From Oscillospiraceae bacterium (GTDB lineage: Bacteria; Bacillota; Clostridia; Oscillospirales; Ruminococcaceae): a stretch of 64,000 nt of DNA. Below the pieces are notes generated by a model. It ran no database searches. It was not told the origin of the DNA and worked only from the letters and a program-made list of their open reading frames with translations. The position numbers were made by a program, and so were the translations under genes. The stretch is taken from the NCBI GenBank assembly GCA_009784825.1, contig WQXO01000007.1, positions 62,001 through 126,000 of the forward strand. The letters are read 5' to 3'. This document shows, piece after piece, positions 1-60,262 of this stretch (its first letter is position 1; every line of letters starts with the position of its first letter).

Positions 1-455
1 GGAAATATGCAGAATTCGTATTCCGTGAGGGGGAGAAAGAGCCGCAGGCGGAAATCCCGGGTAAAACCTACGGCTATTTTGCAGAATATCATTTAAACCG
101 AGGTGAATACAAGGAAGCAGCTAAATTCGCAGACAAAATGCTGCCGTATATCACAGACGGCAGTTCATTTTTCTTTTATGAATACTTCACGCTCGCTATT
201 GATATTTTCCGTGTTACGGACAACCCACGAGCGTATGAGCTGTGGAAAAAGTTCAACCCCAACTATGCGGACTGCAAGAACCCTGCGTTGAGGTTTTTCT
301 GGGGGGCGGTATCGTATCGGTTGTTTAAAGAAACCGACCCGGAGTTAAGCCGGCAGTATTACGAAACAGCGAAAGCAATCGGTAAAAAGTTTGATAAACG
401 TAACGGTAACAGCTTTTTCTCGGATTATTTGAATAACGATATTATTGATGATTAA
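1..455 (+). CDS. Hypothetical protein, C-terminal part (5' end outside window)
   Basis: The frame is open from the first bases of the window (codons in phase from base 3) to a TAA at 453-455, giving about 150 residues of the C-terminal end. The product is soluble, rich in aromatic and charged residues, with no membrane segment. Helical stretches such as YFAEYHLNRGEYKEAAKFAD look like TPR-type helix pairs, so a TPR-like scaffold is possible (inference). I do not recognise the family. Its last 14 bases overlap, tail to tail, the end of the aldo/keto reductase gene on the other strand. No separate terminator lies between them. Confidence 0.7.
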   Translation, partial: KYAEFVFREGEKEPQAEIPGKTYGYFAEYHLNRGEYKEAAKFADKMLPYITDGSSFFFYEYFTLAIDIFRVTDNPRAYELWKKFNPNYADCKNPALRFFWGAVSYRLFKETDPELSRQYYETAKAIGKKFDKRNGNSFFSDYLNNDIIDD

Positions 456-41725: not shown

Positions 41726-44413
41726 ATGCAAAGACATCGGAGTAGTTTACAGGATATTTTTAAGGAGTTGCAGACCGATTCGGGTAAAGGCTTGACAAGC
41801 GGGCAAATCCCCGATATTCAAAAAGAAAAAGGGTTGAACAAGTTCGATGATGAAAAGAAAGAGACGGTTTTGCAAAAGGCACTTCATCATCTTGTTGATA
41901 TAACGTCGCTGATTTTATTAGCGGCGGCGGTTATTGCGTTTATTGTAGCGATATTCGACCCGTCACACGGGTTCACTGACTCGATTGTCATTATGTCAAT
42001 CGTGGTCATAAACGTCGTCCTCGCCACTAAGCAGGAAATGGGGGCGGAGAAAGCATTAGACGCTTTAAAGAATATGCACGCAAATATGACGGTTGTTCTT
42101 CGTGATGGTGAAAAGCAGAATATTAATGCTGTGGATTTGGTGCCGGGTGACATTCTTATATTAGGGGCGGGGGATATGATTCCCGCAGACGCACGAATTA
42201 TCGAAAGCTCTAACTTAAAGGTGGACGAGTCTATTCTGACGGGGGAAAGTGTTCCTGTTGAAAAAGACGGGAATTTGGAAATCGCCGAAGACGCCCCCTT
42301 AGGTGACAGGTTTAATATGCTGTTCTCGGGTTGTCTTATTACTAACGGCAGGGTTAAGGCTGTTGTTGTCGAAACCGGTATGTCCACCGAAATGGGCAAA
42401 ATTGCGGGGTTGTTAAGCGATACCAAAAAAGTGAAAACACCGCTCCAAAAGAAGATGGACGGTTTGGGGAGAATTCTGTGTATGGTCGCAATTGCGGCGG
42501 GTGCGGGAATGTTCCTTATGGAAATAATCAACGGGAATTTCGCTGAGAACCCGCTGTTAGTATTATTGAACGCTGTTTCTATGGCGGTTGCGGTTGTTCC
42601 TGAATGTCTGCCTATTATTGTAACAGCTTCATTGGCATACGGGGTTATGCTTATGGCGAATAAGCATGCGATTATTCGCAGGCTTTCCGCTGTCGAAACC
42701 CTTGGCAGTGCGTCGGTTATATGCTCGGATAAGACGGGTACGCTTACTATGAACCGCATGACCATTCAAAAAGTGTGGATACCCGGGCATGACCCCATTG
42801 ATGCACAAAGCGACTTTAATCATAATGAGCGGTTTCTTATTGAAATTATGTCGTTGGCGAGTAATGCCTCTATTGAAGTTAATGCAGAGGGGGAATCTGT
42901 TAAGGAAATAGGCGACCCCACTGAAACTGCCATAGTACGGTTACTGCGGGATAAGAATATTACGAAAAAGAGCCTTGACGCAATTTTTTATAAAATGCAC
43001 GAGCTTCCCTTCGATTCTCAAAGAAAGTTGATGACTACGGTTCATGAGTTACCCGAGACCGAGAAGCCTAAGGAGGGTCAGCACCGGTATATATCTATTA
43101 CTAAAGGTGCATTTGACAGGATTCCGATTGACCCTGCTACGGTATGCGGGGATACCGCTAAACGTATTCATGATGAATTTGCTCAAAGTGCGTTGAGGGT
43201 TATTGCGGCGGGCTATAAGTATTATGAGGAGCTGCCTGCTGTTCTCGATGAAGCGGAGCTTGAGAAGGATTTGATATTCGCCGGATTTGTGGGAATGATT
43301 GACCCGCCTCGCCCTGAAAGTGCTATTGCGGTTCAAACCGCAAAGGAGGCGGGAATTAAAACAGTTATGATTACCGGCGACCATGTTATTACCGCTTCGG
43401 CAATCGCAAAGGAAATCGGGATATTCAGCGAGGGTGACAAGACCATGACCGGCGTGGAATTAGCGAAAATGAGCGACGATGAATTAGCCGAGAATGTCAA
43501 GAGTTATTCAGTGTATGCCCGTGTCAGTCCGGAGGATAAAATTCGCATAGTTAAGGCGTGGCAGTCCCACGGGGAGGTTGTTGCCATGACCGGTGACGGG
43601 GTTAATGACGCTCCCGCACTTAAGGCGGCTAATGCGGGGGTGGCAATGGGTTCGGGGACTGATGTTTCTAAGAGTGCCTCCGATGTGGTTTTGACCGACG
43701 ACAACTTCGCTTCAATCGTAGACGCAGTTAAGGAAGGCAGGCGAGTTTATACCAATATACGAAAAGTCCTATGTTCGCTGATTTCCTGTAACCTTTCCGA
43801 AATATTCACCATGTTATTGGGTATTCTGTTCTGGCAGAGGGCACCGATTGTGGCAATACAACTATTATTCATTAATGTGGTAGCCGATGGCGTTCCCGAT
43901 TTATGTATGTGTCGTGAGCCTGCCGAGAAGGACGTTATGCGGCAGAAGCCTGTTGAAAAGAATGAAAGCATTTTCGCAAGAGGAGTGGCGACAAGGATTA
44001 TTATATACGGGACTGTGTTTGCTGTGGTGTCGCTGATTGCGTATTACCTGGGTGCTTTTGTGGACGTTTATGACGGTTATGCCCCCTCTCACGAAATAGG
44101 CATGACAATGGCGTATCTTGTAATCGGCGGGTCGTCGGTTGTAAATATTCTTAATGTGAGGAGTTTCAGTGAGTCGGTATTCTCAAAGAACTTCTTCGGG
44201 AATAAAATGCTGTTAGCGGGGATTTGTTTTTCATTTGCCGCATTAGGCTTGACTGCCACAGTACCCGGATTAAGGGACGTTTTCTACTGTGTTCCGATGG
44301 GCTCGAACCACTGGCTCATTGCAATCGGGTTGTCCCTTGCACCGTTATTCGCAGGTGAGATTCATAAAATATTCGTTAGACGGAAGATGAAAAAATTGAC
44401 TGTCGGGAATTGA
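41726..44413 (+). CDS. Cation-transporting P-type ATPase (P2 type, calcium-like)
   Basis: 895 residues. Actuator motif LTGESVPVEKD, phosphorylation motif SDKTGTLTMNR (Asp335), ATP-binding and hinge motif MTGDGVNDAPALKAANAGVAM, and ten membrane helices with the expected spacing. The usual PEGLP of helix 4 reads PECLP, and helix 6 has NVVADGVPDL, so ion selectivity may differ from Ca2+ pumps. SD AAGGAG. It lies 28 bases after the ABC-F gene and is followed by a terminator. Function: ATP-driven cation export at the cell membrane. Confidence 0.9.
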   Translation: MQRHRSSLQDIFKELQTDSGKGLTSGQIPDIQKEKGLNKFDDEKKETVLQKALHHLVDITSLILLAAAVIAFIVAIFDPSHGFTDSIVIMSIVVINVVLATKQEMGAEKALDALKNMHANMTVVLRDGEKQNINAVDLVPGDILILGAGDMIPADARIIESSNLKVDESILTGESVPVEKDGNLEIAEDAPLGDRFNMLFSGCLITNGRVKAVVVETGMSTEMGKIAGLLSDTKKVKTPLQKKMDGLGRILCMVAIAAGAGMFLMEIINGNFAENPLLVLLNAVSMAVAVVPECLPIIVTASLAYGVMLMANKHAIIRRLSAVETLGSASVICSDKTGTLTMNRMTIQKVWIPGHDPIDAQSDFNHNERFLIEIMSLASNASIEVNAEGESVKEIGDPTETAIVRLLRDKNITKKSLDAIFYKMHELPFDSQRKLMTTVHELPETEKPKEGQHRYISITKGAFDRIPIDPATVCGDTAKRIHDEFAQSALRVIAAGYKYYEELPAVLDEAELEKDLIFAGFVGMIDPPRPESAIAVQTAKEAGIKTVMITGDHVITASAIAKEIGIFSEGDKTMTGVELAKMSDDELAENVKSYSVYARVSPEDKIRIVKAWQSHGEVVAMTGDGVNDAPALKAANAGVAMGSGTDVSKSASDVVLTDDNFASIVDAVKEGRRVYTNIRKVLCSLISCNLSEIFTMLLGILFWQRAPIVAIQLLFINVVADGVPDLCMCREPAEKDVMRQKPVEKNESIFARGVATRIIIYGTVFAVVSLIAYYLGAFVDVYDGYAPSHEIGMTMAYLVIGGSSVVNILNVRSFSESVFSKNFFGNKMLLAGICFSFAALGLTATVPGLRDVFYCVPMGSNHWLIAIGLSLAPLFAGEIHKIFVRRKMKKLTVGN

Positions 44414-44439
44414 AATAATCTTCAGTTTATCACGTTTGC

Positions 44440-44462
44440 CGCCGATTTTCTCGGCGGCAGAT
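44440..44462 (+). terminator. Terminator after the P-type ATPase
   Basis: TGCCGCCGA / TCGGCGGCA with TTTTC loop, followed by a T-rich stretch (GATATATTTT). Confidence 0.75.
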
Positions 44463-44481
44463 ATATTTTCCAGATAAAATG

Positions 44482-44510
44482 TTGACAATGCGGGAAATAT
44501 ATGTTATGAT
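44482..44510 (+). promoter_or_regulatory. Promoter of tRNA-Arg (and possibly tRNA-His)
   Basis: TTGACA (44482-44487), 17 bases, TATGAT (44505-44510). Confidence 0.8.
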
Positions 44511-44532
44511 GTTAAACGTATTATAAGCAGAC

Positions 44533-44606
<74 letters not shown>

Positions 44607-44607
44607 T

Positions 44608-44712
44608 GACGGACAATGTACAATGTACAATTGACAATTGACAATTATTTTAAAGCAAGCTTGTATAATCCTTTATTAATTGTCAATTGTGCATTGTCAA
44701 CTGTCAATTGTC
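44608..44712. repeat. Palindromic AATTGACAAT repeat element between two tRNA genes
   Basis: Left end GACGGACAATGTACAATGTA then ATTGACAATTGACAATT; right end the inverse AATTGTCAATTGTGCATTG then TCAACTGTCAATTGTCA; an about 40-base unique centre holds AAGCAAGCTTG and TATAAT. It has the shape of a small inverted-repeat element. Confidence 0.65.
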
Positions 44713-44714
44713 AT

Positions 44715-44789
44715 GGTGGGTGTGGCGCAGTTGGTTAGCGCGTCAGATTGTGGCTCTGAAGGCCGTGAGTTCGAATCTCATCATCCACC
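44715..44789 (+). tRNA. tRNA-His(GTG)
   Basis: 75 nt including the extra G at position -1: GGTGGGTG start, anticodon loop ATTGTGGC (GTG), TPsiC AGTTCGAATCT, 3' CATCCACC. CCA is not encoded beyond CC. Confidence 0.95.
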
Positions 44790-44837
44790 CTTTTCTTTTG
44801 GTTTTCACGCACAATAATTATTTAGGAGCTGATTAAA

Positions 44838-47051
44838 TTGGTTGAGAATCTATTCTGGGTAGGTTACATCGGAGCGGCAGCATCACTTGTGTTCGCACTT
44901 ATTCAAGCACGCAAGGTCATGAAGTTTTCTGAGGGCGACGAGAAAATGCAGAAAATTGCACAGGCAATCCGAACGGGTGCAAATGCTTTTATGAAACGCC
45001 AGTACAGCACGGTTGCTATTATTCTCGGAGGCATTTTCCTCCTCCTTGCCGCACTTGCGTACATACCCTTGTTATTCGGTCAGAGCGGTTACATAAACGT
45101 GTTTACACCGTTCGCTTTCATCACGGGGGGAACCTTAACCGCGTTGTGCGGCTTCATCGGAATGAAGGTTTCCACCAACGCCAACGCCCGTACCGCTCAT
45201 GCCGCAACCGAAAGCCTTAATAAGGCTCTTCGTGTGTCGTTTGCGTCAGGGTCGGTTATGGGATTTATTGTAAACGGGTTGGCTATTCTTGAAATAACGG
45301 TCTGGTTTATGCTTTTAAAATATGCGTTTAAGCAACCTGATGACGTTATCGCATATACCATGGTTACATTCGGAATGGGCGTTGCTGTGGTTGCCGTGTT
45401 CGCACGTGTCGGTGGCGGTATATTCACCAAAGCCGCAGACGTCGGTGCGGACTTAGTCGGTAAGGTAGAAGCCGGAATTCCTGAGGACGACCCCCGTAAC
45501 CCCGCTGTTATCGCTGATAACGTGGGTGATAATGTGGGCGACGTTGCGGGAATGGGTGCAGACTTACATGAAAGTAACTCCAACGCATTAGTGGCGACCA
45601 TCGCCATCAGCTTTGGTGCGGGGTACGGAATTGCGGGATTTATGCTACCAATTATCGTGTCGGTGGTAGGTGTAATCTGTTCGATTATCGGTACGTTCTT
45701 CGTTCGCACAAAGGAACAAACTGACCAGAAATCACTCTTGGGTTCACTCAGAAGAGGTGTTTATGTAGCAGGCGGACTTGCGGCTGTTATTACAATGCCT
45801 TTGATTTATTATATTGCCAACAACGCTCCTGCACAAACCGAAGGTATTGCAAACCCTATGGCTAATAACGTGTGGGGATTATGCGGAGCGGTAATCGTCG
45901 GTATCATTGCAGGGTTTATCGTAAGCCTTTTCACAGAGTATTACACCTCTGACGCAAGTAAGCCCACTCGTGAGCTTGCCGCTTCAAGTGAAAGCGGTGC
46001 CGCTCCTTTGATGATTGGCGGTTTATCACTCGGTATGAAATCAACTGCAGGCCCGCTCCTTACAATCGGCGGTGCCGCATTAGCGAGTTTCTGCATTTCG
46101 GGTGGTATGGACTACCTCAGAAACGGCGGTATATTAGACTATAACGCAGGGTTATACGGGATTGGACTTTCCGCTGTTGCTATGCTCGCAACTAACGCGA
46201 TTATTCTTGCGACTGACGCATTCGGCCCCGTTGCGGATAACGCCGGCGGAATTGCCGAAATGGCTCATTTACCCGCAGAGGTTCGTGAACGCACCGACGC
46301 ACTCGATGCACTCGGAAACACTACTGCGGCTACCGGTAAAGGGTTCGCAATCGCCTCAAACGCATTCACGGGGCTGGCACTCTTAGTTTCTTATGTGAAT
46401 GTTGCCCTTGCTGAAATGGGTAAAGGCTGTGAAACTTGTGTAGAATTAGGCGAGAACTGCTCTGACCATGCACTTAACTTAGCGATTACTAATCCGCCTG
46501 TTCTTATCGGGTTCTTCGCGGGAGCGGCTGTGGTGTTCTTGTTTGCGGCACTTTGTATGTCGGCGGTTCAGAGGGCGGCACAAAGTATCGTTAAAGAGGT
46601 CAGACGGCAGTTCAAAGAAATTAAAGGTCTGTTAGAGGGGAAAGAGGGCGTTGAAGCCGATTATGCAACTTGTGTTGACATATGCACAAGAGGGGCTTTA
46701 AAAGAAATGGTTGCCCCTGCCCTGCTCACAATCGCCGCACCTATACTTGTGGGATTAGTTCTCGGTTCAGCAGGTGTTGTCGGTTATTTAGCGGGAATTA
46801 TTGTTATCGGGTTCTCAATGGCAGTGTTTATGTTAAACTCCGGCGGTGCTTGGGATAATGCCAAGAAGCATATCGAGCAAGGGAACTTCGGCGGTAAGGG
46901 CAGTGATAATCATAAGGCGGCAGTAATCGGTGATACGGTGGGTGACCCCTTAAAAGATACGGCAGGTCCGTCGTTCAATAACGTAATCACGGTTTCTTGT
47001 ACTGTTGCGATTGTGTTTATTGGAATAACTGTGGCGTTCTCGTTGCTGTAA
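44838..47051 (+). CDS. hppA: Membrane-bound K+-dependent pyrophosphatase (H+ or Na+ pump)
   Basis: 737 residues, sixteen membrane helices expected. Substrate motifs DVGADLVGKVEAGIPEDDPR, NPAVIADNVGDNVGDVAGMG and the C-terminal GDTVGDPLKDTAGPSFN are diagnostic. GNTTAATGKG has Ala where K+-independent enzymes have Lys, so this is the K+-dependent class, which includes both H+ and Na+ pumps; the ion cannot be decided from these motifs. It couples PPi hydrolysis to ion export and matches PPi use by ppdK. The start is TTG 44838 after SD TAGGAGC. Confidence 0.95.
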   Translation: MVENLFWVGYIGAAASLVFALIQARKVMKFSEGDEKMQKIAQAIRTGANAFMKRQYSTVAIILGGIFLLLAALAYIPLLFGQSGYINVFTPFAFITGGTLTALCGFIGMKVSTNANARTAHAATESLNKALRVSFASGSVMGFIVNGLAILEITVWFMLLKYAFKQPDDVIAYTMVTFGMGVAVVAVFARVGGGIFTKAADVGADLVGKVEAGIPEDDPRNPAVIADNVGDNVGDVAGMGADLHESNSNALVATIAISFGAGYGIAGFMLPIIVSVVGVICSIIGTFFVRTKEQTDQKSLLGSLRRGVYVAGGLAAVITMPLIYYIANNAPAQTEGIANPMANNVWGLCGAVIVGIIAGFIVSLFTEYYTSDASKPTRELAASSESGAAPLMIGGLSLGMKSTAGPLLTIGGAALASFCISGGMDYLRNGGILDYNAGLYGIGLSAVAMLATNAIILATDAFGPVADNAGGIAEMAHLPAEVRERTDALDALGNTTAATGKGFAIASNAFTGLALLVSYVNVALAEMGKGCETCVELGENCSDHALNLAITNPPVLIGFFAGAAVVFLFAALCMSAVQRAAQSIVKEVRRQFKEIKGLLEGKEGVEADYATCVDICTRGALKEMVAPALLTIAAPILVGLVLGSAGVVGYLAGIIVIGFSMAVFMLNSGGAWDNAKKHIEQGNFGGKGSDNHKAAVIGDTVGDPLKDTAGPSFNNVITVSCTVAIVFIGITVAFSLL

Positions 47052-47130
47052 GCCGATAGAATTGATGTTATATTTAATAAGGTGGGGTACAGGTAACTGT
47101 GCCCCTTGTTAACAAAGTTAAGGAGAATAT

Positions 47131-47781
47131 ATGTCGAGAAATAAAATTATTGTGGTTGATGATAATCCTGTCACCCTCGCTATATGCGATAAGGTATTGG
47201 GTATGTCGTTTGAAGTGTTTGCGGTGGAATCGGCGATTAAAATGTTCGAGATAATTGATGAGGTTATGCCCTCATTAATCGTTCTTGACGTTGAAATGCC
47301 GGGCATGGACGGGTATGAGGCCATCAAAACATTAAAAGCCAATGATGTCTATAAAGATATTGCGGTGGTGTTCCTTTCTGCACTTGATGACGCTAAGAGT
47401 GAGATGGCAGGGTTGGACTTGGGTGCGGTTGATTATATTCATAAACCTTTCGACGGGCAAATCCTTTTACGGCGGGTTGAAAAGCACATTAAAGTAATCG
47501 AGGGCAGGCATGAGCTGCTTGAGCTGAATAAATTAATAGATGAATTGTCGAGGCACAAAAGCAAGAATTCTAAGGAATTGATAGACCACCTCTTAGCCCG
47601 TGAGGAAATCCTCACCCGAATGGCTCATGATATTCGCTCGCCGCTTAACACCATTATGGATATGATTGCCACCGCCATAAACACAAACAATGTTGACGAA
47701 ATTATTAACTGCCTCGGAAAAGCTGATATTGAATCAAGATTGATTTTAGAAATAATCGACGACGTTCTCGACATTGAATAA
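47131..47781 (+). CDS. Receiver domain fused to an isolated DHp (HisKA) helix pair, no kinase domain
   Basis: 216 residues. Receiver domain (about 1-120; VVDDNPVTLAICDK, LDVEMPGMDGYEAI, with Lys in VDYIHKPFD), a coiled linker, then RMAHDIRSPLNTIMDMIA with His166 and a second helix ending LEIIDDVLDIE. The HATPase domain that normally follows is absent and the stop is clean. Layout suggests a phosphotransfer dimer like Spo0B (inference), which could connect to the two hybrid kinases at 23.9-28.2 kb or to sporulation. SD AAGGAG. It stands between hppA and an antiporter gene. Confidence 0.82.
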   Translation: MSRNKIIVVDDNPVTLAICDKVLGMSFEVFAVESAIKMFEIIDEVMPSLIVLDVEMPGMDGYEAIKTLKANDVYKDIAVVFLSALDDAKSEMAGLDLGAVDYIHKPFDGQILLRRVEKHIKVIEGRHELLELNKLIDELSRHKSKNSKELIDHLLAREEILTRMAHDIRSPLNTIMDMIATAINTNNVDEIINCLGKADIESRLILEIIDDVLDIE

Positions 47782-47804
47782 AATTAGTTAAAAGGATAGA
47801 TTAA

Positions 47805-48968
47805 ATGGACATTGTTTTTATCTTCGGAATAATACTCGTTATCAGTGCGTTATCCTGTAAAACCGCTAACAAGGTCGGCTTGCCCGTGTTGGTCGGTTTT
47901 ATTCTGATTGGTGTGCTAATCGGAAATTTCTTCCGTTTCGATGACATGGAAATTGTTGACCATATTTGTAACTTCGCTTTATTGCTGATTATTTTCACGG
48001 GTGGGTTTCACACCGATTTTGCAAGGGCTAAACCGGTTCTCGCTGTATCCTCCGCTATATCAATCGGGGGGACTGTTCTGACTGCGGCTTTGTCCGGTGC
48101 TTTTGCCTATTATGTTTTGAACCTCGGTTTTTACCCGTCCATCTTGCTTGGTGTAATTATCTCATCGACTGACGTGGCTTCGGTTTTCTCTGCACTTCAA
48201 TCTAAACGAATGGTTTTGAAAAATGACCTTGATTCTGTTTTGGAATTGGAAAGCGGTTCTAATGAACCATTTGCTCATATTCTGACAATCGTGTTCATCG
48301 CACTTGCAACCGGCTCAAGCAATGCACCGTTGGTTTTTATTGTAGAATTAGGTGTGGGAATTATTGTGGGTGTTGCTTTCGCAAAGTTAGGGCAGTTTTT
48401 GATTAACCGATTGAGAGTGGACATTGACGGGGTTTACGGGGTTCTCCTGTGCGGGCTGGCGTTCCTTATATTCGGGGCTGCGGCTCAGCTTGGTGGGAGC
48501 GGATTCTTGGCTGTGTACATAGGCGGCATGATTATGGGGAATGGCAGGTTAGTGTATAAGGGGTCGCTTTCAAGAATGTATAGTGCGGTTTCTATGCTTA
48601 TGCAGATTGTATTATTTATCGTTTTGGGAATACTGTTTATACCGTCATTAGAAAAAATTGAATCAGTTTGGAAGGTCGCAGGGACAGGATTACTGTTCGC
48701 CTTGTTCTTGTTCTTGGTTGCACGCCCTTTGGCAATGTTCTTGATTATGAAGCTGTTCCGCCGCCCTTGGAGAGAAATCGTATTCGTGTCGTGGGCGGGG
48801 TTTAGAGGGGCTTCCTCCATTGTTTTCGCCACGCATTTGTTGACGGAGAAATTGGAATATTCCGAATATGTCTTCAGCATTGTGTTTTTTACGGTAATAC
48901 TGTCGGTAACAGTGCAAAGTTCGTTTATCCGCCCGATTGCAAAAAAGTTAAAATTAGTGGAAGAATAA
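47805..48968 (+). CDS. Cation:proton antiporter (CPA1/NhaP2-like)
   Basis: 387 residues, about twelve membrane helices. FTGGFHTDFARAKPVLAVSS, VIISSTDVASVFSALQSK and LESGSNEPFAHILTIVF follow the pattern of K+/H+ and Na+/H+ antiporters of the CPA1 type; the ST-D and SNEP acid residues are the expected ion-binding positions. NhaP2-type proteins normally carry C-terminal RCK domains, which are lacking here. SD AAAGGAT. It continues an ion-homeostasis block (P-ATPases, hppA). Confidence 0.85.
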   Translation: MDIVFIFGIILVISALSCKTANKVGLPVLVGFILIGVLIGNFFRFDDMEIVDHICNFALLLIIFTGGFHTDFARAKPVLAVSSAISIGGTVLTAALSGAFAYYVLNLGFYPSILLGVIISSTDVASVFSALQSKRMVLKNDLDSVLELESGSNEPFAHILTIVFIALATGSSNAPLVFIVELGVGIIVGVAFAKLGQFLINRLRVDIDGVYGVLLCGLAFLIFGAAAQLGGSGFLAVYIGGMIMGNGRLVYKGSLSRMYSAVSMLMQIVLFIVLGILFIPSLEKIESVWKVAGTGLLFALFLFLVARPLAMFLIMKLFRRPWREIVFVSWAGFRGASSIVFATHLLTEKLEYSEYVFSIVFFTVILSVTVQSSFIRPIAKKLKLVEE

Positions 48969-48987: not shown

Positions 48988-51900
48988 ATGAACGCTTACA
49001 TTGAGTCAAAGGAAACACTTGTAAAAACCTATAACACCGACATGCTCTCGGGATTAACCGATGAGCAGGCTGTTAAAAATGCCGCAGAATTCGGTGTAAA
49101 CTCGCTTACTAAAAAGAAGCCTGTGTCACTTTTAAAAAGAATATGGCTCGCTTCAACCGAACCTATGCTCATTCTGTTGATTGTCGCCGCTTTAATTGCG
49201 GTTACGGTTAACATAATTCGCTATTCGGCGGGCGGGCATTTTGATTGGCCCGAATGCATCGGTATATTCGTTGCGATTATTCTGTCGGTGGCAATTGCTG
49301 TTATTATGGAGGGCAAGAGTGCTAAAGCATTTGAGGCACTTAATAAAATTAACGAAGATATTGTTGTGAAAGTTATCCGCAACGGCAGTACTGTTATGTT
49401 AAACCAAAAAGACATTGTTGTGGGAGATATTCTTATAATCTCGACAGGTGACAGAGTTCCCGCTGACGGAAGACTGATAAGCAGCAGTGAGCTTCATGCG
49501 GACGAATCTATGCTGACGGGAGAATCAGTTCCTGCTGAAAAAGATTCCGAAGCAGTTATTACTGATGTGAAAACACCGTTAGCGGAACGTGTAAACATGT
49601 TATATTCCGGGACGTTTATTACATCGGGGTTCGGGCAGTTAATCGTTACCGGGGTGGGCGACAGCACCGAATTCGGGAAAATTGCGGGTGAACTGAATAA
49701 TAAGAAAAGCGATTCTGAAAAGTCCACCCCTTTACAGGAAAAGTTAGCACGAATGAGTAAGCTGATTACGCTGTTCGGGGTTATTGCCGCCGCTATTGTT
49801 TTTGTTGTACAGTTAATTAATTTTTCAAAAAACGGTGTGTTACATTTTGAGGAAGTGATGGACGCTTTCGTAACAAGTATTGTGTTAATTGTTGCCGCTG
49901 TTCCTGAGGGATTGCCGACAATTGTGGCAGTGTCGCTTTCGATTAATATTATTAAATTGGCAAAGCAAAACGCACTTGTTAAAAAAATGATTGCCTGTGA
50001 AACTGTCGGCTGTGTTAATATAATCTGCTCGGACAAAACAGGTACACTCACCGAGAACCGCATGACCGTAGTCAATGAAATAACAAGCGATATAATTATA
50101 AAAAACATTCAAATAAACAGCACTGCCGAATTAGGGGAGGACAATACATTCATCGGCAACCCAACCGAGTGTGCGTTACTTGTAAGGGCAGGCGATTATA
50201 AAAAAGCCCGCCGTGAAGCGGAAATTGTAACAGTTATGCCGTTTTCCTCCCAAGAGAAAATGATGACTACGGTGGTACTCGAAAACAGCGATAATGTGTC
50301 TTATTACAAGGGCAGTCCCGAAAGAATTATGGCATTGTGCGATGATTATTCCGCTGAGGAGGAGATTATCGCTTATGAGGAAAAGTCCTGCCGAATTATT
50401 GCATTCGCACATAGTATTAACAGCGGTTCGCCGCAGTTTGACGGGTTCGCCGCAATCGCTGACCCCATTCGTGAGGAGGTATACGAAGCTGCCGAGAACT
50501 GCTTCAGGGCGGGGATTGAAATAAAAATGCTGACCGGCGATAATATAATTACTGCCACTGCCATAGCTAATGAACTGCACTTACTCGACGGTGGAAAAAT
50601 CGCTGTTGAGGCAAGAGAATTAGAAGAGTTATCTGATGAGGAATTGGCTGAGAAAATCAAGAATATCGCTGTTATTGCACGGAGTACGCCTACTATAAAA
50701 ATGCGTGTGGTTAAATTATTAAAAGAAGCAGGCAATGTCATTGCGGTTACGGGGGACGGGATAAACGACGCTCCCGCTATTAAAAACGCTGACGTTGGGA
50801 TTGCTATGGGGATTGCGGGGACAGAGGTTTCTAAGGAAGCCAGCGACATTGTTTTATTAAATGATTCATTCGCAACCATTGCGAGGGCGATTGAATGGGG
50901 GCGAGGAATTTACGAGAATTTCAAAAGGTTCATCGTGTTCCAGCTTACTGTGAATGTTTCATCAGTTACTGTAGTCCTTGCGTCGGTGCTTATGGGATTG
51001 AAAGAACCGTTCACTGCATTGCAGTTGTTGTGGATTAATATAATAATGGACGGTCCACCCGCTTTGACCTTAGGGTTGGAACCGCCTCATAAAAACTTGA
51101 TGGATAACCCACCGGTTAAGCGAAGTGAAAACATCGTTTCTAAGAAATTGTTGGCACGGATAGGCGTGTCGGGATTGTATATTTCTGTAGTGTTTTTATT
51201 GCAATATACCGTGAATTTCCTCGGTGCAACCGACGAGCAACGAATGACTGTTCTGTTTGCATTGTTCGCAATGTTCCAATTATTTAACTCGTTTAACTGC
51301 CGTGTCCTCGGCAATGAAAGCATATTCCCAACGTTTTTCAAAAACAAAATTATGTTAGCGGCAGTTTCAGTTACGTTTGTTATGCAAATATTAATTATAC
51401 AATTCGCAGGGGATTTCTTTAAAGTAATCCCGCTTAGTTTCGATATGTGGGTGAGAGTTATTGCTGTTGCTTCAAGTGTGATTGTGCTGACAGAGCTTGT
51501 GAAGTTAGTCAGGCGGGCAGGCAAGAAAGCGTTATATGTGATTGTTCCTGTTATCGTTGTATTATCGGTATTGTGCTTGCTTTTATATAATGGGGTAATT
51601 TGGTTTAACAATCCGTCAACACAAAAATACCCCGTGAGAGGGGTAGATGTTTCATCGTATCAAGGTGTTATTGACTGGGAAATTCTCGCCGATAATAATA
51701 TAGATTTCGCATTTATCAAAGCAACGGAGGGAAGCAGTCACGTTGATGAAAAGTTCGCCTATAACTGGGAGAAAGCATTGTCCGATACAGATTTGTTAAT
51801 TGGGGCATATCACTTTTTCAGTTATGACAGTTCGGGTATAACACAGGCGGAGAATTTTATAAAAACCGTTCCCATTGTATCGGGGACTCTGCCGCCTGTA

Positions 51901-52248
51901 ATAGATATAGAATTCTACGGAGATATAGAAAAAAATCTGCCCTCTCGAGAGCATACCGGTGAAATACTGAACGATATGTTAATAATACTTGAGGAGCATT
52001 ACGGACACAAGCCGATAATATACGCTACCATGAAATCGTATAACCTGTACATTAAAAACGAATATGAGGAATACCCGATTTGGATAAGAGATGTGATTAA
52101 AAAGCCGGTTCTCCCCGATGGGAGGGAATGGGTGTTCTGGCAGTATTCCCACCGTGAAACCTTAAACGGTTATGACGGGGTTGAAAGGTTCATTGATATG
52201 AATGTGTTTTACGGTTCGACATATGAGCTTAGGGAACTTACAGATTAA
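48988..52248 (+). CDS. Fusion of a P-type calcium-like ATPase with a C-terminal GH25 muramidase
   Basis: 1086 residues in one uninterrupted frame. Residues 1-845 form a complete P2A/PMCA-type ATPase: LTGESVPAEKD, helix 4 VPEGLPTIVAVSLS, SDKTGTLTENRM (Asp349), VTGDGINDAPAIKNADVGIA, helix 6 INIIMDGPPALTLGLEP, ending LTELVKLVRR. Then an eleventh membrane helix (849-871) and a GH25 lysozyme domain (884-1086) with all motifs: RGVDVSSYQGVIDW, FAFIKATEG, GAYHFFSYD, the catalytic pair in PPVIDIEFYG, and WQYS. An odd number of helices puts the muramidase outside the cell, where its substrate is. Probably formed by fusion of two adjacent genes (inference). It overlaps convergent comF by 11 bases. Confidence 0.93.
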   Translation: MNAYIESKETLVKTYNTDMLSGLTDEQAVKNAAEFGVNSLTKKKPVSLLKRIWLASTEPMLILLIVAALIAVTVNIIRYSAGGHFDWPECIGIFVAIILSVAIAVIMEGKSAKAFEALNKINEDIVVKVIRNGSTVMLNQKDIVVGDILIISTGDRVPADGRLISSSELHADESMLTGESVPAEKDSEAVITDVKTPLAERVNMLYSGTFITSGFGQLIVTGVGDSTEFGKIAGELNNKKSDSEKSTPLQEKLARMSKLITLFGVIAAAIVFVVQLINFSKNGVLHFEEVMDAFVTSIVLIVAAVPEGLPTIVAVSLSINIIKLAKQNALVKKMIACETVGCVNIICSDKTGTLTENRMTVVNEITSDIIIKNIQINSTAELGEDNTFIGNPTECALLVRAGDYKKARREAEIVTVMPFSSQEKMMTTVVLENSDNVSYYKGSPERIMALCDDYSAEEEIIAYEEKSCRIIAFAHSINSGSPQFDGFAAIADPIREEVYEAAENCFRAGIEIKMLTGDNIITATAIANELHLLDGGKIAVEARELEELSDEELAEKIKNIAVIARSTPTIKMRVVKLLKEAGNVIAVTGDGINDAPAIKNADVGIAMGIAGTEVSKEASDIVLLNDSFATIARAIEWGRGIYENFKRFIVFQLTVNVSSVTVVLASVLMGLKEPFTALQLLWINIIMDGPPALTLGLEPPHKNLMDNPPVKRSENIVSKKLLARIGVSGLYISVVFLLQYTVNFLGATDEQRMTVLFALFAMFQLFNSFNCRVLGNESIFPTFFKNKIMLAAVSVTFVMQILIIQFAGDFFKVIPLSFDMWVRVIAVASSVIVLTELVKLVRRAGKKALYVIVPVIVVLSVLCLLLYNGVIWFNNPSTQKYPVRGVDVSSYQGVIDWEILADNNIDFAFIKATEGSSHVDEKFAYNWEKALSDTDLLIGAYHFFSYDSSGITQAENFIKTVPIVSGTLPPVIDIEFYGDIEKNLPSREHTGEILNDMLIILEEHYGHKPIIYATMKSYNLYIKNEYEEYPIWIRDVIKKPVLPDGREWVFWQYSHRETLNGYDGVERFIDMNVFYGSTYELRELTD

Positions 52249-52858
52249 CTGCCGCAATGACCGCCGTGTATACCTTTTCCGCACCTGCAAAGCGAAGAAT
52301 TTCCGCCGCCTCTTCGAGTGTTGAGCCGGTCGCACGAACATCGTCAATGAGAAGTATGTTTTTTGCGATTTTGTGATTTTTCGTAACAGTAAATGCACCT
52401 TTAAGATTCTCACGGCGTTCTTCCGCTGTGAGGTCTTTTTGTGTTTCGGTATTGCGGATTTTTTTGAGTAGTTTCACGTCGCAGGGAATGTTCATTAATT
52501 GACCGAGTTCCTCTGCGACTAATGCGGGCGGATTATATCCGCTTATTTTTATTCGATGTTTACTCGCGGGAATACAAGTTATTAAATCAATATTTATATC
52601 AAGAATATCGTATATCAGTTTAGCGGCGGCGGACACTGCGTAACCGTTGCCACCCTCCTTTATGCTGAAAATAAACGGTTTAATCTTCTCGGTGTATTCA
52701 AACACTGCAATATTATCCGAATCGTTTTTGTGAAATTCATAATTGTCGATACAGGAATTGCACCAGTAGGCATTATATGTGATTATCTCGTTACAAAACG
52801 GACAGCGGTTCGGGTAAAGAACGTCAAGTGCGAGGCGTTTTAACTCGTAAGCGGTCAT
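52238..52858 (-). CDS. ComF-family phosphoribosyltransferase-like protein
   Basis: 206 residues. N-terminal zinc finger CPFCNEIITYNAYWCNSC, then a PRTase fold with the PRPP motif ILLIDDVRATGSTLEEAAEI. ComF proteins bind PriA and are needed for single-stranded DNA handling in natural transformation. It overlaps the recD2 stop by 4 bases, so the two are coupled, and overlaps the 3' end of the convergent ATPase-GH25 gene by 11 bases. Whether the host is competent is not shown. Confidence 0.9.
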   Translation of the reverse strand: MTAYELKRLALDVLYPNRCPFCNEIITYNAYWCNSCIDNYEFHKNDSDNIAVFEYTEKIKPFIFSIKEGGNGYAVSAAAKLIYDILDINIDLITCIPASKHRIKISGYNPPALVAEELGQLMNIPCDVKLLKKIRNTETQKDLTAEERRENLKGAFTVTKNHKIAKNILLIDDVRATGSTLEEAAEILRFAGAEKVYTAVIAAVNL

Positions 52859-55056
52859 TCGTCCTCCTGTGTCATCAACGTCCGCAAGCAGGAATAACGG
52901 ATTGTTTTTTTATCGTTGTTCGTCATTTGTAATATAGTTTCTGCCCTGCCTACGATAATTAATAAATCCCTCGCCCTTGTTACTCCCGTGTATAACAGAC
53001 TGCGGTATAACAGTTTCCTTGCGGCTGTCGGGAGCGGCAGAATTACTGCCCTGTACTCACTGCCTTGACTCTTATGGACGGTTATTGCAAAAGCGTGTTC
53101 GATTTTATTAAACAGTCCGGGTGGGATTGCCGCTACTCTGCCGTCGAAGTTTACGATTAGACTACCCGAGTGGCGGTCAATGTCGGTGATTATTCCAATA
53201 TCGCCGTTAAACACACCCATGCCCCTTTCGCCGCCACGCTTCCACTCGATATTATAATCGTTGACGGTCTGCATGACCTTGTCGCCTATTCGGAATGTCA
53301 CATCGAAATACTTCACCTCACGTTTTTTAACCGAAGCAGGGTTAATTGCACTTTGTAACGATTTATTGAGCTCACGTGTTCCCGCTTGACCCATTTTTGT
53401 CGGGGTCAGCACTTGTATGTCTTCTATCGGGTTGAACCCGTAAGCGTCGGGTAAGCGTGTTTGTACCAATCCTGTAACAGTTTTTGATATTTCGTCCTCG
53501 GTGTTGCAATTAATAAAGAAGAAGTCCTTGTCACGAACGTTCAACTCGGGGGCAGTGCCATTGACAATACTGTGGGCGTTTGTGACAATCAGACTTTCGG
53601 CAGCTTGGCGGAAAATTTCGGTCAGCCTTATGCTTTCAATTTTTTTCGATGCTATTAAGTCCCTTAGAATATTCCCTGCACCCACTGACGGTAATTGGTC
53701 GGAATCGCCCACCATTATTAACTTTGAATCGTTCTTCACAGCACGCAGAAGTGATTCAAATAAAAGTGTGTCTACCATTGACATTTCATCAATTATTATA
53801 ACATCGGATTTAATTGGGTTGAGCTCGTTTTTCTTGAACTTCAGCATGTTTTCCTGTGAGGCATCTACTTCTAATAATCGGTGAATAGTCATCGCTCTTT
53901 CACCTGTTAATTCTGACATGCGTTTCGCCGCTCTCCCTGTGGGGGCGGCTAATGATAATGTGTTTCTTTTACGCTTAAGCAGTTGAATTACGGCGTTAAG
54001 CGTGGTGGTTTTACCTGTACCGGGCCCGCCTGTTAAAATCAGCAGATTGTTCCCTAAGCAACCGTTGATTGCCGCCTTTTGAAGAGTTTCATAGGTTATG
54101 CCCTCTGCCCATTCTATACCCGCAATTTCCTCGGAAAAGTCAGCCGTGACTTTCGGGTTAAACTTGAGCATTTTATTAAGCTTATCCGTTATATATTGCT
54201 CTGCCTTGTAGTAGGCGGCGAGATAGACAAATTCGTGCTTACTGATGTCTAAAACATAGAAGCGACCCTCGTCCACCCCTTCGTATAGACCTATGTCAAA
54301 AGCGTCACGGGTTAAACCGATATACTCGATTGCACAATCACGTAGCTGGCTCATAGGAAGGCAGGTATGCCCCATACCCGTGTTACTGAGGAGAATATGC
54401 GAGATTGCCGCTTTAACACGGTTGATGGCGTTGGTGTCAATCCCGAACGCTTCGGCTAATTTATCGGCAGTTTCAAATTCAAGCTCTATCCCCTCTTCAC
54501 AAAGAATGAACGGGTTCTCTTTAATTAATGCGATTGATGAGGTGTTGTACCTCTGCCATACCGCAATTGCCGTTGCGGGGCTTATACCGTATTCTGAGAG
54601 GAACGACATCACTGTGTTGACACCGCACAGCTTTCGATATTGTGTTCCGTAGGATATGGCTTTGTCAAGTGTTATGCCTTTGATTTCGTGCAGGCGTTCG
54701 GGGGTGTTTTCGATAATGTCGAGTGTGCTTGTCCCGAATTTTTCTGTGATTTTTATAGCGGTTTTAACCCCGATACCGGATATTATTCCGGAACCGAGGT
54801 AACGTGATATTTCTTCAACTGTTTCGGGAGGTGTGCGTTCTACCGTTTGTGCCTTGAACTGCTCACCGTATTTCGTGTCGATAATAAATGTTCCCGTAAG
54901 CAACAGCTTCTCCCCCTCGGCAATATCGCCGAGAACTCCCTTAACGGTAATCGGACTGCCGTCACAATCTAACTCAAGAATGATAAAGCCGTTTTCTGCG
55001 TTTTTGAATATGACACTGTCCACAATTCCCGATATTGTTTTTACGGTTTCGTCCAT
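52855..55056 (-). CDS. recD2: RecD2-type ATP-dependent DNA helicase
   Basis: 733 residues, the length of RecD2 (RecD without RecBC). N-terminal OB-like part (ISGIVDSVIFKNAENGFIIL), a helix-hairpin-helix region (LGSGIISGIGVKTAIKITE), Walker A LTGGPGTGKTTTLNAV, motif II IIDEMSMVDTLL, GDSDQLPSVGAG and motif VI FAITVHKSQGSEYRAVIL. A 5'-3' helicase for replication-fork and repair work. Start ATG 55056 lies inside the 3' end of a small membrane-protein gene (16-base overlap) and has no near SD, so it is probably translationally coupled. Confidence 0.94.
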   Translation of the reverse strand: MDETVKTISGIVDSVIFKNAENGFIILELDCDGSPITVKGVLGDIAEGEKLLLTGTFIIDTKYGEQFKAQTVERTPPETVEEISRYLGSGIISGIGVKTAIKITEKFGTSTLDIIENTPERLHEIKGITLDKAISYGTQYRKLCGVNTVMSFLSEYGISPATAIAVWQRYNTSSIALIKENPFILCEEGIELEFETADKLAEAFGIDTNAINRVKAAISHILLSNTGMGHTCLPMSQLRDCAIEYIGLTRDAFDIGLYEGVDEGRFYVLDISKHEFVYLAAYYKAEQYITDKLNKMLKFNPKVTADFSEEIAGIEWAEGITYETLQKAAINGCLGNNLLILTGGPGTGKTTTLNAVIQLLKRKRNTLSLAAPTGRAAKRMSELTGERAMTIHRLLEVDASQENMLKFKKNELNPIKSDVIIIDEMSMVDTLLFESLLRAVKNDSKLIMVGDSDQLPSVGAGNILRDLIASKKIESIRLTEIFRQAAESLIVTNAHSIVNGTAPELNVRDKDFFFINCNTEDEISKTVTGLVQTRLPDAYGFNPIEDIQVLTPTKMGQAGTRELNKSLQSAINPASVKKREVKYFDVTFRIGDKVMQTVNDYNIEWKRGGERGMGVFNGDIGIITDIDRHSGSLIVNFDGRVAAIPPGLFNKIEHAFAITVHKSQGSEYRAVILPLPTAARKLLYRSLLYTGVTRARDLLIIVGRAETILQMTNNDKKTIRYSCLRTLMTQEDE

Positions 55057-56824: not shown

Positions 56825-56897
56825 GGGAGCTTAGCTCAGCCGGGAGAGCACCTGCCTTACAAGCAGGGGGTCACAGGTTCGAGCCCTGTAGCTCCCA
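56825..56897 (+). tRNA. tRNA-Val(TAC)
   Basis: 73 nt: acceptor GGGAGCT/AGCTCCC, anticodon loop CCTTACAAG (TAC), TPsiC GGTTCGAGCC, discriminator A, no encoded CCA. Confidence 0.95.
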
Positions 56898-56904
56898 CTC
56901 CCGA

Positions 56905-56978
56905 GGTCCAGTAGTTCAGTTGGTTAGAACGCTAGCCTGTCACGCTAGAGGTCGAGGGTTCGAGTCCCTTCTGGATCG
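56905..56978 (+). tRNA. tRNA-Asp(GTC)
   Basis: 74 nt: acceptor GGTCCAG/CTGGATC (one G-T pair), anticodon loop CTGTCAC (GTC), TPsiC GGTTCGAGTCC, discriminator G. Confidence 0.95.
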
Positions 56979-56983
56979 TTTTT

Positions 56984-57056
56984 GCCCCTGTAGCTCAGTC
57001 GGTAGAGCAGTAGACTGAAAATCTACGTGTCGTTGGTTCAATTCCGACCGGGGGCA
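56984..57056 (+). tRNA. tRNA-Phe(GAA)
   Basis: 73 nt: acceptor GCCCCTG/CGGGGGC, anticodon loop CTGAAAA (GAA), TPsiC GGTTCAATTCC, discriminator A. Confidence 0.95.
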
Positions 57057-57090
57057 CGACGACAATGTACAATTGTCGGTCAATAGTTAA

Positions 57091-57163
57091 GCGGATTTAG
57101 CTCATTCGGTAGAGCGCCACCTTGCCAAGGTGGAGGTGACGAGTTCGAGCCTCGTAATCCGCT
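57091..57163 (+). tRNA. tRNA-Gly(GCC)
   Basis: 73 nt: acceptor GCGGATT/AATCCGC, anticodon loop TTGCCAA (GCC), TPsiC AGTTCGAGCCT, discriminator T. A short AATTGTC repeat separates it from tRNA-Phe. It is the tRNA nearest the recombinase module and a possible integration target. Confidence 0.95.
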
Positions 57164-57176
57164 GGCAATTATACAG

Positions 57177-57212
57177 TCCTCAAACCCGGTGTTTATGTGG
57201 GTTTGGGGATTT
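57177..57212 (+). terminator. Terminator of the tRNA cluster
   Basis: CCTCAAACCC / GGGTTTGGGG followed by ATTTTTCTTTTTT. Confidence 0.85.
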
Positions 57213-57253
57213 TTCTTTTTTGTTAAATTCTCATTCTTCCCATTATCTTCCCA

Positions 57254-58462
57254 TTAAATCGTTTGACTTGCCTGCCGATAAGCGTTCGATAGGATTTCAC
57301 AATTGCGGCTTGCTGTGTTCCTGTGCCCGTAGCAGTTTAAAGTCGTAGAAACGGAAGTGTGCCCTAATAAACGTGAAACTGTTACGATGTCAACGCCCGC
57401 TTGGAGCAATGTTGATGCCGCCAGATGACGAAGACTGTGCAAATCACAAAAACGAAAACCATTACATATGCAGAAATCTTTAAACCACTTATACGGAAGT
57501 GTCGGGCAGAGCAGATTACCATTCCACGATGAAAACACCATATCATAACCCGTGTTAATCCACTTGTTCGCAAGTTGTAACTTCTGTTCATTCTGCCATG
57601 ATTTATAATTGCATAACATATCAACAATATGTTTCGGTAAGCCGGCAATGGTACGCTGTGATTCTTCGGTTTTAGTTTCACCTACATGAGTGCCGATTGA
57701 CTTAGTATATTTCACCGCCTGACGAATTGTTATACTGCCATAATCCAAGTCCACATCACGCCATTCAAGCCCGAGCAGTTCTCCGCGTCTGACACCTGTA
57801 TGAGCCATTAGGTTAATAAGCATTCGCAGTACAATGTTATCCGTTGATTCGAGAGCGACTAAAATCTGCCCCATTTCTTCAATGGTATAGATTTCTTTTC
57901 GCTTTTTACGTTCAGTCGGTAATTCCACCTGACTACAAGGGTTTCGGTCAACCATGTCAAACCGTAAAGCCCGCTTAAACACATTAGAAATAAAACCTAA
58001 ATGAAGTTGCTTGCGTTTTCTGCTCAATGGTTTTCCCGCTACTTTAGATTTCTGCTTACTCCTGCCGTTAGTCATCAAGCTGTCGATGAAAAATTGAATT
58101 TGCCGTGCGGTAATTTCCCCGATTTGCATATATCCGAATTCTTTATATATGCGTGGTGCAATCCGCCTATAAGTATCAAAGGTAATCGGTGACAAACTGC
58201 TTTTTGCTCCGTTTAACCATTCCTCTGCAAGAGCTTCAAACTTAATTGTATTATCAGTGAACCTTTTACTTTTGCACTCCATTCGGAACAATACAACTGC
58301 CTCTTGTAACGCTTCAGCGATTTGTTTATTATTTCTTTGTTCGGGGTTAGGATACCACATTGTTGAGCGGACTATCTGCTTACCGTGAATATCACGTCCC
58401 ATTGTTATGCGTATTTCGTACCCGCCATCGGTTTTTGAGCGGGTATGTTTTATTTTTACCAT
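57254..58462 (-). CDS. Site-specific tyrosine recombinase (Tn916/phage-type integrase)
   Basis: 402 residues. N-terminal arm-binding domain (IKHTRSKTDGGYEIRITMGR), core-binding SAM-like domain (about 70-175) and catalytic domain with Arg in HTGVRRGELLGLEW, the HSLRHLAASTLLQAGVDIVT block (His, Arg), VSRLLGHTSVSTTL (His) and the nucleophile Tyr in LNCYGHRNT. Full length and apparently intact. SD AAGGAGG is presented in the loop of a 7-bp hairpin (58463-58485). The gene ends about 90 bases from tRNA-Gly, the classical position of an integrative element's int gene. Confidence 0.93.
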   Translation of the reverse strand: MVKIKHTRSKTDGGYEIRITMGRDIHGKQIVRSTMWYPNPEQRNNKQIAEALQEAVVLFRMECKSKRFTDNTIKFEALAEEWLNGAKSSLSPITFDTYRRIAPRIYKEFGYMQIGEITARQIQFFIDSLMTNGRSKQKSKVAGKPLSRKRKQLHLGFISNVFKRALRFDMVDRNPCSQVELPTERKKRKEIYTIEEMGQILVALESTDNIVLRMLINLMAHTGVRRGELLGLEWRDVDLDYGSITIRQAVKYTKSIGTHVGETKTEESQRTIAGLPKHIVDMLCNYKSWQNEQKLQLANKWINTGYDMVFSSWNGNLLCPTLPYKWFKDFCICNGFRFCDLHSLRHLAASTLLQAGVDIVTVSRLLGHTSVSTTLNCYGHRNTASRNCEILSNAYRQASQTI

Positions 58463-58485
58463 CGCGATTCCTCCTTAAAATCGCG
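58463..58485 (-). promoter_or_regulatory. Hairpin with SD in the loop at the integrase start
   Basis: CGCGATT and AATCGCG form a 7-bp stem whose loop is TTAAGGAGG; the start codon follows at once. Confidence 0.55.
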
Positions 58486-58559
58486 GTACATTTTCACATG
58501 ATTATTTTACCATAATTAAATCCTTTTGTCAAATCTAATGCACTGCTTCTTTAGTTTGC

Positions 58560-58736
58560 TTATGCTTTGAAAACTGTGTTGTAGAGTGCTTTTTCGGGTA
58601 TCAGATATTTTTTACCCGCCATGAAACACGGTAATTCCCCTGTGATACACATTTGGCGGATACGGTATTCTGTTAATCCGTCAATAAGCATGGCGGCTTC
58701 TTTAATTGTGAGTAATCTATTTCTATCTTGGTTCAT
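58560..58736 (-). CDS. Excisionase-like small HTH protein
   Basis: 58 residues: MNQDRNRLLTIKEAAMLIDG, then LTEYRIRQMCITGELPCFMA and GKKYLIPEKALYN. This is the MerR/Xis-type winged helix of excisionases (LTIKEAA start, then a helix reading the groove and the GKKYLIP wing). Start ATGA overlaps the stop of the upstream recombinase by 4 bases. It lies between two recombinases and 97 bases before the integrase, matching an xis-int order. Confidence 0.82.
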   Translation of the reverse strand: MNQDRNRLLTIKEAAMLIDGLTEYRIRQMCITGELPCFMAGKKYLIPEKALYNTVFKA

Positions 58737-59608
58737 TCCTGCTCACCACCGTTCTTTTTAAGTGATGATAAGTAAATCTCTGTAACATCACCCCGCTCAT
58801 GTCCTAATAACTTCGATACTGCTTTTTTCGCCTGCCATTCGGTGTAACCGCTGTTGATAAACTCATTAAACTTGTTCACCGAATAAGTATGACGTAACCC
58901 GTGAAACGTAAGCCTCTCTTTATTTTGGCGTTCGGGTAGTTTATTACGATAATATCGTATAAACTGTTGCAACTGTTTAATGTACACATGGGTAGGTACA
59001 TCGTTCGGGACGAGTAACTTCTCGCCTCTTTCGGTAACCTCAAGCTGTTTGCGGAGTGTAACCGATATTAAGTCATTAATCGGAGCTGTGCGTTGTTTCC
59101 CGTTTTTGCCCTTAATAGTGAGAAATCCGCTTTTAATTGCGTTCCTTGCCATAGCGGTGTCAATTCTGCAACACTCGTGAATTCGTAACCCTGCATAATA
59201 CGCAAGACACATCGCACATACATAGTCCTCTGTTGCATAAGCACATATCATATTGAACTCTTCCTCGCTCCATGTCCTGTCATAACCGAGGAGCTTCCTG
59301 CGGCTTAGGTTTAATTCCGAGTTATCGGGTAGTTTAAACCGTGGTTCTGACATCTTATCATGGAAGAACCGTATAGCTGCTAAGTCTGTCTTAATCGTCG
59401 AGGCGGATTTGTTGCTTTTCTTAAGATATTCTGCATATCCCTCAATGTGCTTAGGTGCGATGTTCGATAGTTTCTGTAACCTCCATTCTTCTGCTAAGTA
59501 TCGGCAGAACCGTTGCATCGCCTGGTAGTATCGTTCTTTAGTCTTGATACTCCCCTGTCGATTGTGTTTGTGTAGTCTCTCTAACTGCGAGATTAAGTTT
59601 TGGTACAT
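58733..59608 (-). CDS. Second tyrosine recombinase (XerC/D-like)
   Basis: 291 residues from ATG 59608 (SD AAAGGGG); a longer frame to 59641 would run into a hairpin and has no SD. N-terminal core-binding domain (SIKTKERYYQAMQRFCRYLA), catalytic Arg in YYAGLRIHECCRID, LTFHGLRHTYSVNKF (His, Arg), LLGHERGDVTEIYLS (His and Tyr nucleophile). It has no arm-binding domain and is unlike the integrase encoded downstream. The 5' leader is about 640 bases of structured sequence with its own promoter. Its role may be in controlling the element or in inversion. Confidence 0.88.
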   Translation of the reverse strand: MYQNLISQLERLHKHNRQGSIKTKERYYQAMQRFCRYLAEEWRLQKLSNIAPKHIEGYAEYLKKSNKSASTIKTDLAAIRFFHDKMSEPRFKLPDNSELNLSRRKLLGYDRTWSEEEFNMICAYATEDYVCAMCLAYYAGLRIHECCRIDTAMARNAIKSGFLTIKGKNGKQRTAPINDLISVTLRKQLEVTERGEKLLVPNDVPTHVYIKQLQQFIRYYRNKLPERQNKERLTFHGLRHTYSVNKFNEFINSGYTEWQAKKAVSKLLGHERGDVTEIYLSSLKKNGGEQE

Positions 59609-59622
59609 AAAGTCCCCTTTCC

Positions 59623-60262
59623 GCGAATCCTTGATTCGCATTGGGCAACAGGTCTGCCCTAACCGAATTTTCAGCGTTTCCTGTCGGTTTCTGTTTCAGT
59701 AAGGAGGACAGTTATCGTTTTTGCCTTTATTTAAGCCGTTTCTGCTAATCGCCATTAATACTGTCTCTGTTGTATTTAGTTGTACGCTGATTAGAAATTA
59801 CGCCGATTTCGCTTTAATAAGCGTATGAATAATTCATATCGGCACACACATTATCTGAGTAACTCAGACAGCGTTTCCGCTAAGTGTGTTTGGTTGCGTA
59901 ATCCTACGCCGGAACATTAATTGATTTGATAAATTCCCCCTTTCGTTTTAGATTGACTTTTTAATTGATTGTCGATTTTAATTAACTTTTAATCAATTCT
60001 GAATAGATTTTTTGACTTAAAATTGATTTTAACGCAAAAGAAAGCCTATGACTTTTTTACAAATAAAAAAGTCGCACCTCTCCCATATGGGATTAGTGCA
60101 GCTCATGCGAACTGTTTGGTTTTTGTTAATTTAGAATGACATTGAAATCGTCATTCCCACCGACACGTCTATGACAGAATAGTACCTGTTACAGCAACGT
60201 AAGCGTTAATAGATAGACCGTTCTGATGAGGTCGCAACCTCGTGAACGTTAAAAGTAATTAA
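59623..60262 (-). ncRNA. Candidate large structured RNA upstream of the recombinases
   Basis: About 640 non-coding bases behind a perfect promoter, packed with stems. 5' part: CGTTC/GAACG (60219-60223/60244-60248) around GAGGT/ACCTC; GTCTAT/ATAGAC (60167/60213); GAATGAC/GTCATTC (60134/60150); GCAC..CCCAT/ATGGG..GTGC (60074-60099) followed by six T. 3' part: two adjacent three-way junctions. GCCGAT/ATCGGC (59802/59838) encloses CGCTT/AAGCG and ATGAA/TTCAT. ACACAC/GTGTGT (59844/59884) encloses CTGAG/CTCAG and AGCG-GAAA-CGCT, a GNRA loop. GCGTA/TACGC, AACCGA/TCGGTT, GGGCA/TGCCC and GCGAATC/GATTCGC complete it. Family not recognised; it may be one RNA or a short RNA plus a long leader. Confidence 0.6.
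59942..60035. repeat. Iterated TTAATTGATT/AATCAATT motifs
   Basis: Between the two structured parts the sequence is AT-rich with repeated ATTGATT, TTTTAATT and AATCAATT units in both orientations, like arm-type recombinase or Xis binding sites. Confidence 0.45.

Follow-up and report, generated by a model that had tools for sequence, protein, structure and literature searches.

Can a single bacterial gene encode both an ion pump and an enzyme that cuts the cell wall? This question is raised by one frame in the window (the whole 64,000-nucleotide stretch of DNA analysed here), which runs on the plus strand at 48988–52248 as a single stretch of 1086 codons, from an ATG at 48988 to a stop ending at 52248, with zero internal stops. 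The named Pfam domains of its product all score above their curated cut-offs, and both the ATPase (residues 6–841) and the GH25 domain (886–1061) are complete (Table 1), so the initial annotation was right to see here a complete P-type ATPase and a complete GH25 in one unbroken frame. The same frame is found on a 145 kb contig (C7); as this contig belongs to the assembly from which the window was taken, it adds no independent evidence. We consider that it probably represents (at a probability of about 0.6) a real lineage-specific fusion, an eleven-helix Ca2+ exporter with an extracytoplasmic muramidase, the two being linked by co-expression and co-location.

Table 1. Features of the fused protein and of its surroundings in the window.
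Feature	Residues	Position	Strand	Basis
Cation_ATPase_N	6–71			Pfam, above curated cut-off
E1-E2_ATPase	126–327			Pfam, above curated cut-off
Hydrolase	344–602			Pfam, above curated cut-off
Cation_ATPase_C	673–841			Pfam, above curated cut-off
Glyco_hydro_25	886–1061			Pfam, above curated cut-off
PMCA-type Ca2+ P-type ATPase (predicted)	1–843 (about)	48988..51516	+	Pfam, NCBIfam, alignments
Junction and predicted eleventh helix, GH25 signal anchor	844–875	51517..51612	+	hydropathy, GH25 alignments
GH25 muramidase domain (predicted) and stop	876–1086	51613..52248	+	Pfam, alignment with 1jfx
Second cation P-type ATPase (38% identity to the fused ATPase)		41726..44413	+	Pfam, alignment
Membrane pyrophosphatase (H_PPase)		44838..47051	+	Pfam
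Receiver-domain protein with partial HisKA stretch, no kinase domain		47131..47781	+	HisKA 25.3 bits against cut-off 26.9
Na_H_Exchanger-family antiporter, 19 bases upstream of fused gene		47805..48968	+	Pfam
ComF-like phosphoribosyltransferase, convergent, 11-base overlap with fused-frame end		52238..52858	-	domain match
RecD2-like helicase		52855..55056	-	named by eye and synteny

The reading of the first half as a calcium-like P-type ATPase with Asp349 and the accompanying motifs is well borne out. The PMCA-type NCBIfam model TIGR01517 matches it with 646 bits (cut-off 507), and the PMR1-type (573) and SERCA-type (451) scores stay below their own cut-offs. The phosphorylated Asp and the TGES, TGD and GDGxNDxP motifs are all present in the translation; in an alignment with 32 orthologues D349 is invariant, as are most motif residues, and D590 is nearly so. 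The solved structures that match this part best are those of SPCA1, of LMCA1 from bacteria and of a plant pump of the PMCA type. Aligned to LMCA1 (lmo0841; PDB 6zhf, 9euq), the ion-site residues are E307, N684 and D688, opposite E292, N716 and residue 720, the region in which the excerpted text of PMC11977196 places a single Ca2+ site of LMCA1. The ATPase half probably exports Ca2+ through a single site that corresponds to site II of SERCA, with protons as counter-ion; the identity of the ion rests on this comparison of site residues, and it may also be Mn2+.

The GH25 half is complete too. PF01183 scores 125 bits against a cut-off of 27 and covers profile positions 1–179 of 180, the best solved relatives are 2wag (E 7e-71) and 1jfx, and the carboxylates D887, D973, E975 and D1070 align with D9, D98, E100 and D198 of 1jfx, which we take to be its catalytic residues. 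Both the completeness of the domain and its catalytic acidic pair, claimed from the start, are thus confirmed, and this half is a predicted muramidase that would cut glycan strands near the membrane. Its horizontal gain is possible; the tree, placing the fused domain with no single stand-alone member, falls short of showing it.

Where do the two halves meet? After what should be ten helices of the ATPase type, hydropathy gives an eleventh hydrophobic segment: residues 844–875 are strongly hydrophobic, and 848–866 is the most hydrophobic 19-residue window of the entire protein. Our ATPase set comprised 111 loci (the best 80 of 477 relatives in named genomes, plus 29 and 2 others, a few records being present twice), three of which are unreadable to the stop, as two run off the contig and in one (L124) the match ends early. 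In all 108 readable loci the stop lies close to the position equivalent to 850, at most 8 residues ahead of it or 11 behind it, so none of them carries an extra domain. Conversely, 32 of the 34 stand-alone members of the GH25 subfamily in the order (E < 1e-40, among the matches listed) align from residues 847–864 on and so include the hydrophobic segment wholly or partly, and the other two start behind the anchor; stand-alone rows that cover the whole anchor have 8–17 identities over 28–30 residues. Since normal ATPases stop there and stand-alone GH25s align from there, the eleventh helix is, as judged by alignment, no linker but the signal anchor with which such a GH25 protein starts; the initial annotation had already proposed this for a junction near residue 845. 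Because the helix matches a GH25 N-terminal anchor, the fusion would consist of the last codons of one gene and the first of another, a join that, by the same alignments, costs almost nothing of either partner.

P2-type pumps have ten helices and a cytoplasmic C-terminus, and under the positive-inside rule positively charged residues flanking a helix stay cytoplasmic. In the fused protein a basic stretch, KLVRRAGKK, directly precedes the hydrophobic segment. With a ten-helix ATPase expected to have its C-terminus inside the cell, and with this stretch ahead of the most hydrophobic segment, the chain should cross outward at helix 11 and bring the GH25 domain to the side that faces the wall. An AlphaFold model, built from an alignment (A4) that sets 32 ATPases beside the window protein and has no GH25 rows, backs the ATPase domains and has helices at 818–844 and 849–874. 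The latter has a pLDDT of 46–61 and the GH25 part mostly below 50, a low-confidence region that is unreliable because of the missing GH25 rows. The proposal that an extra helix puts the muramidase outside thus draws on the anchor and the basic stretch before it; the model is too weak there to show the membrane side. Two joint alignments (A2 and A3) were dropped, as their GH25 rows fell onto the ATPase and the guide rows of A3 were overlapping pieces of the window protein itself.

Does such a protein occur elsewhere? The GH25 part with its anchor was searched against 71 genomes of the genus, 394 of the order, 391 of the class and 398 of the phylum, sets that overlap and of which the larger ones are samples. 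Any match at all is present in 61 of the 71, 192 of the 394 and 110 of the 391 genomes, respectively; in the phylum 9 of 398 match at E 1e-25 or better, and in the family of the best match 2 of 4 genomes have a match. Genus mates have just distant GH25s (E 7e-16 or weaker) and lack this subfamily. Besides the window, subfamily members (E < 1e-40, among the matches listed) number 34 in the order and 28 in the class, in frames of 236–617 and 219–424 aa, and the phylum search gives ten other rows in frames of 165–278 aa. Open frames of this length are too short for an ATPase plus a GH25, so none of these members is a fusion. A second ATPase-GH25 fusion was found neither in these searches, among the matches listed, nor in the 108 readable ATPase loci; the whole-protein scan of named genomes may omit the window's own genome. 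Among viral contigs, no relative was found with the GH25 part as query and the exact junction pattern was absent; alignment A1 picked up at least 80 GH25 loci there, at 29–38% identity.

Several candidates were rejected. At least nine GH25 matches fall in long frames (≥950 aa); seven of these regions (L160–L166) have no ATPase, and the other two listed are in G626 and G666. The 617-aa frame (L142) owes its length solely to an extension at its upstream end, which runs across a gene read in a different frame. Among the titles and opening parts of abstracts listed for open-access literature on such a fusion or on membrane-anchored GH25 lysozymes we found no protein of this kind, in line with the statement that no ion pump with a tethered wall hydrolase is known. 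Within the sequences searched, the fusion is striking and so far a one-off, present in one genome only.

Being alone, it might owe its existence to an assembly or base-call error, either a small error at the junction that merged two adjacent genes or a chimeric contig. The window comes from a single assembly in 32 contigs, and both the lack of another fusion among the genomes searched and the lack of this GH25 subfamily in genus mates would fit such an error. However, a chance chimera would have had to hit the precise end of one gene and the precise start of the other and to keep the frame as well, and GC and codon usage are unchanged across the junction. Furthermore, the ATPase nearest to the fused one in the tree (L176:7323-9923 of genus mate G063; support 100/96) also adjoins RecD2. 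It ends normally (866 aa), and the GH25 of that genome is just a distant one, elsewhere, with 33% identity. This sister ATPase lies 66 bases after RecD2, with no ComF between them and in an orientation that differs from the window, where ComF and RecD2 are found just beyond the GH25 part. Because it too neighbours RecD2, the sequences to the left and to the right of the junction would belong to a single chromosome region. The receiver protein and the antiporter are paired in three genus mates (G003, G012, G085), and RecD2 and ComF in three others (G010, G066, G081). Together, the synteny with the sister ATPase, these neighbour pairs and the uniform composition make a gross chimera unlikely; they weigh less against a single-base error, and we regard an error of either kind as unlikely overall, though worth serious thought.

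Upstream of the fused gene, the plus-strand region 41726–48968 is, by its predicted genes, an ion-transport cluster, and the antiporter and the fused gene are probably on the same transcript. Farther downstream there are four tRNA genes, one each for Val, Asp, Phe and Gly, at 56825–57164 on the plus strand, followed by two Phage_integrase-family genes (57254–58462 and 58733–59641, minus strand); 56825–59641 is likely the edge of an integrated element.

In the relatives examined, ATPase and GH25 are two separate genes, and in none of them was a member of the anchored GH25 subfamily found directly behind the ATPase gene. A GH25 profile applied to 109 ATPase loci, whose flanks are short in many cases, gave one GH25 neighbour: in G003 a different GH25 gene (L007:205-1335, 376 aa) ends 42 bases upstream of the orthologous ATPase. 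We do not count this as a conserved gene pair, because by a rough estimate GH25 genes are common enough to give about 1 in 109. Seen from the other side, GH25 lies beside a cation transporter in 2 of the 19 stand-alone loci with neighbours viewed, the other 17 neighbourhoods being unrelated by eye. At L132:315-1814 (G122) the stand-alone GH25 that best matches the fused one comes after the gene of a GDT1 divalent cation/proton antiporter, and at L144:1501-3711 (G417) another stand-alone anchored GH25 is divergent to a Na_H_Exchanger-family gene. This count is suggestive and compatible with chance.

Close relatives of the ATPase also occur in Treponema, Fibrobacterota and Methanosarcinales MAGs (L052, L056, L068, L081, L087, L091 and others). 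As ATPases from outside Bacillota are mixed among those of Bacillota in the tree, their phylogeny suggests ATPase transfer between gut organisms. The loci of the named-genome scan include several MAGs with isolate names of termite-gut appearance; one study reportedly deals with 589 termite-gut MAGs (PMC7024585).

It should be considered whether one frame might yield two proteins, the GH25 being made also or mainly alone, by an internal GTG start or by cleavage after the anchor, with the pump serving as its leader. In-frame GTG codons are indeed present at 838 and 851, which is where the stand-alone GH25 genes start, but neither is preceded by a clear ribosome-binding site by eye, and no promoter-like site was found on the plus strand at 50544–51671, the 1.1 kb before the junction included. 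A terminator-like site was likewise not found on the plus strand at 51172–51628. We judge separate production of the GH25 improbable. Still more doubtful is a recent, neutral or decaying fusion in which one half is dead and the join has no role. Its occurrence in one species only would agree with this, as would the second cation ATPase of the same kind 4.6 kb upstream, which could make the fused one dispensable; against it, no stop, frameshift or lost active residue was found in the sequence of either half.

Under the fusion that we favour, a stand-alone GH25 gene with its own signal anchor would have been joined in frame to the 3' end of a Ca2+-ATPase gene in an ion-transport cluster. The product would be an eleven-helix pump, with ten ATPase helices ending in the cytoplasm and the former signal anchor crossing outward, which would place the muramidase outside, against the peptidoglycan and tethered near the membrane. 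There the ATPase would export Ca2+, probably against protons, and the GH25 would cut the glycan strands within its reach. The promoter and the position of the pump would then fix the time and the place at which the tethered hydrolase appears, giving 1:1 co-expression and co-location. Given the topology and the two activities that we infer, the inferred link between pump and muramidase is most likely such shared expression and location rather than allosteric control. The initial annotation went further, suggesting that wall remodelling might be coupled to cation export or to local ion concentration; we found nothing in support of coupling. A tethered muramidase switched directly by the pump cycle, or by a local change of Ca2+ or H+, would make a P-type ATPase part of a wall-remodelling machine, but seems to us a long shot.

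If the fusion is real and active, a single polypeptide exports an ion and cuts peptidoglycan, and it would be a small, self-contained system in which to ask whether Gram-positive bacteria link the export of divalent cations to the turnover of their wall. It would also show that a signal-anchored enzyme can extend a membrane protein with a cytoplasmic C-terminus with no parts lost from either.

Each partner has counterparts among known systems. LMCA1 and SPCA1 (8iww) have the whole ATPase core in common with the window protein, but their alignments stop at its residues 843–847, and neither chain spans the extra helix and the GH25. Similarly, 2wag and 1jfx share the domain and the four aligned carboxylates, in chains of 220 and 217 residues with no transporter joined. 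Further counterparts are the stand-alone signal-anchored GH25s of Clostridia (L132, L133 and others; about 250 aa), which, at an identity of up to 63%, have a hydrophobic anchor directly before the domain just as the window protein does. Those of the order lie in frames with no room for an ATPase and are separate genes bounded by their own stops, whereas the window GH25 lies in frame with its ATPase.
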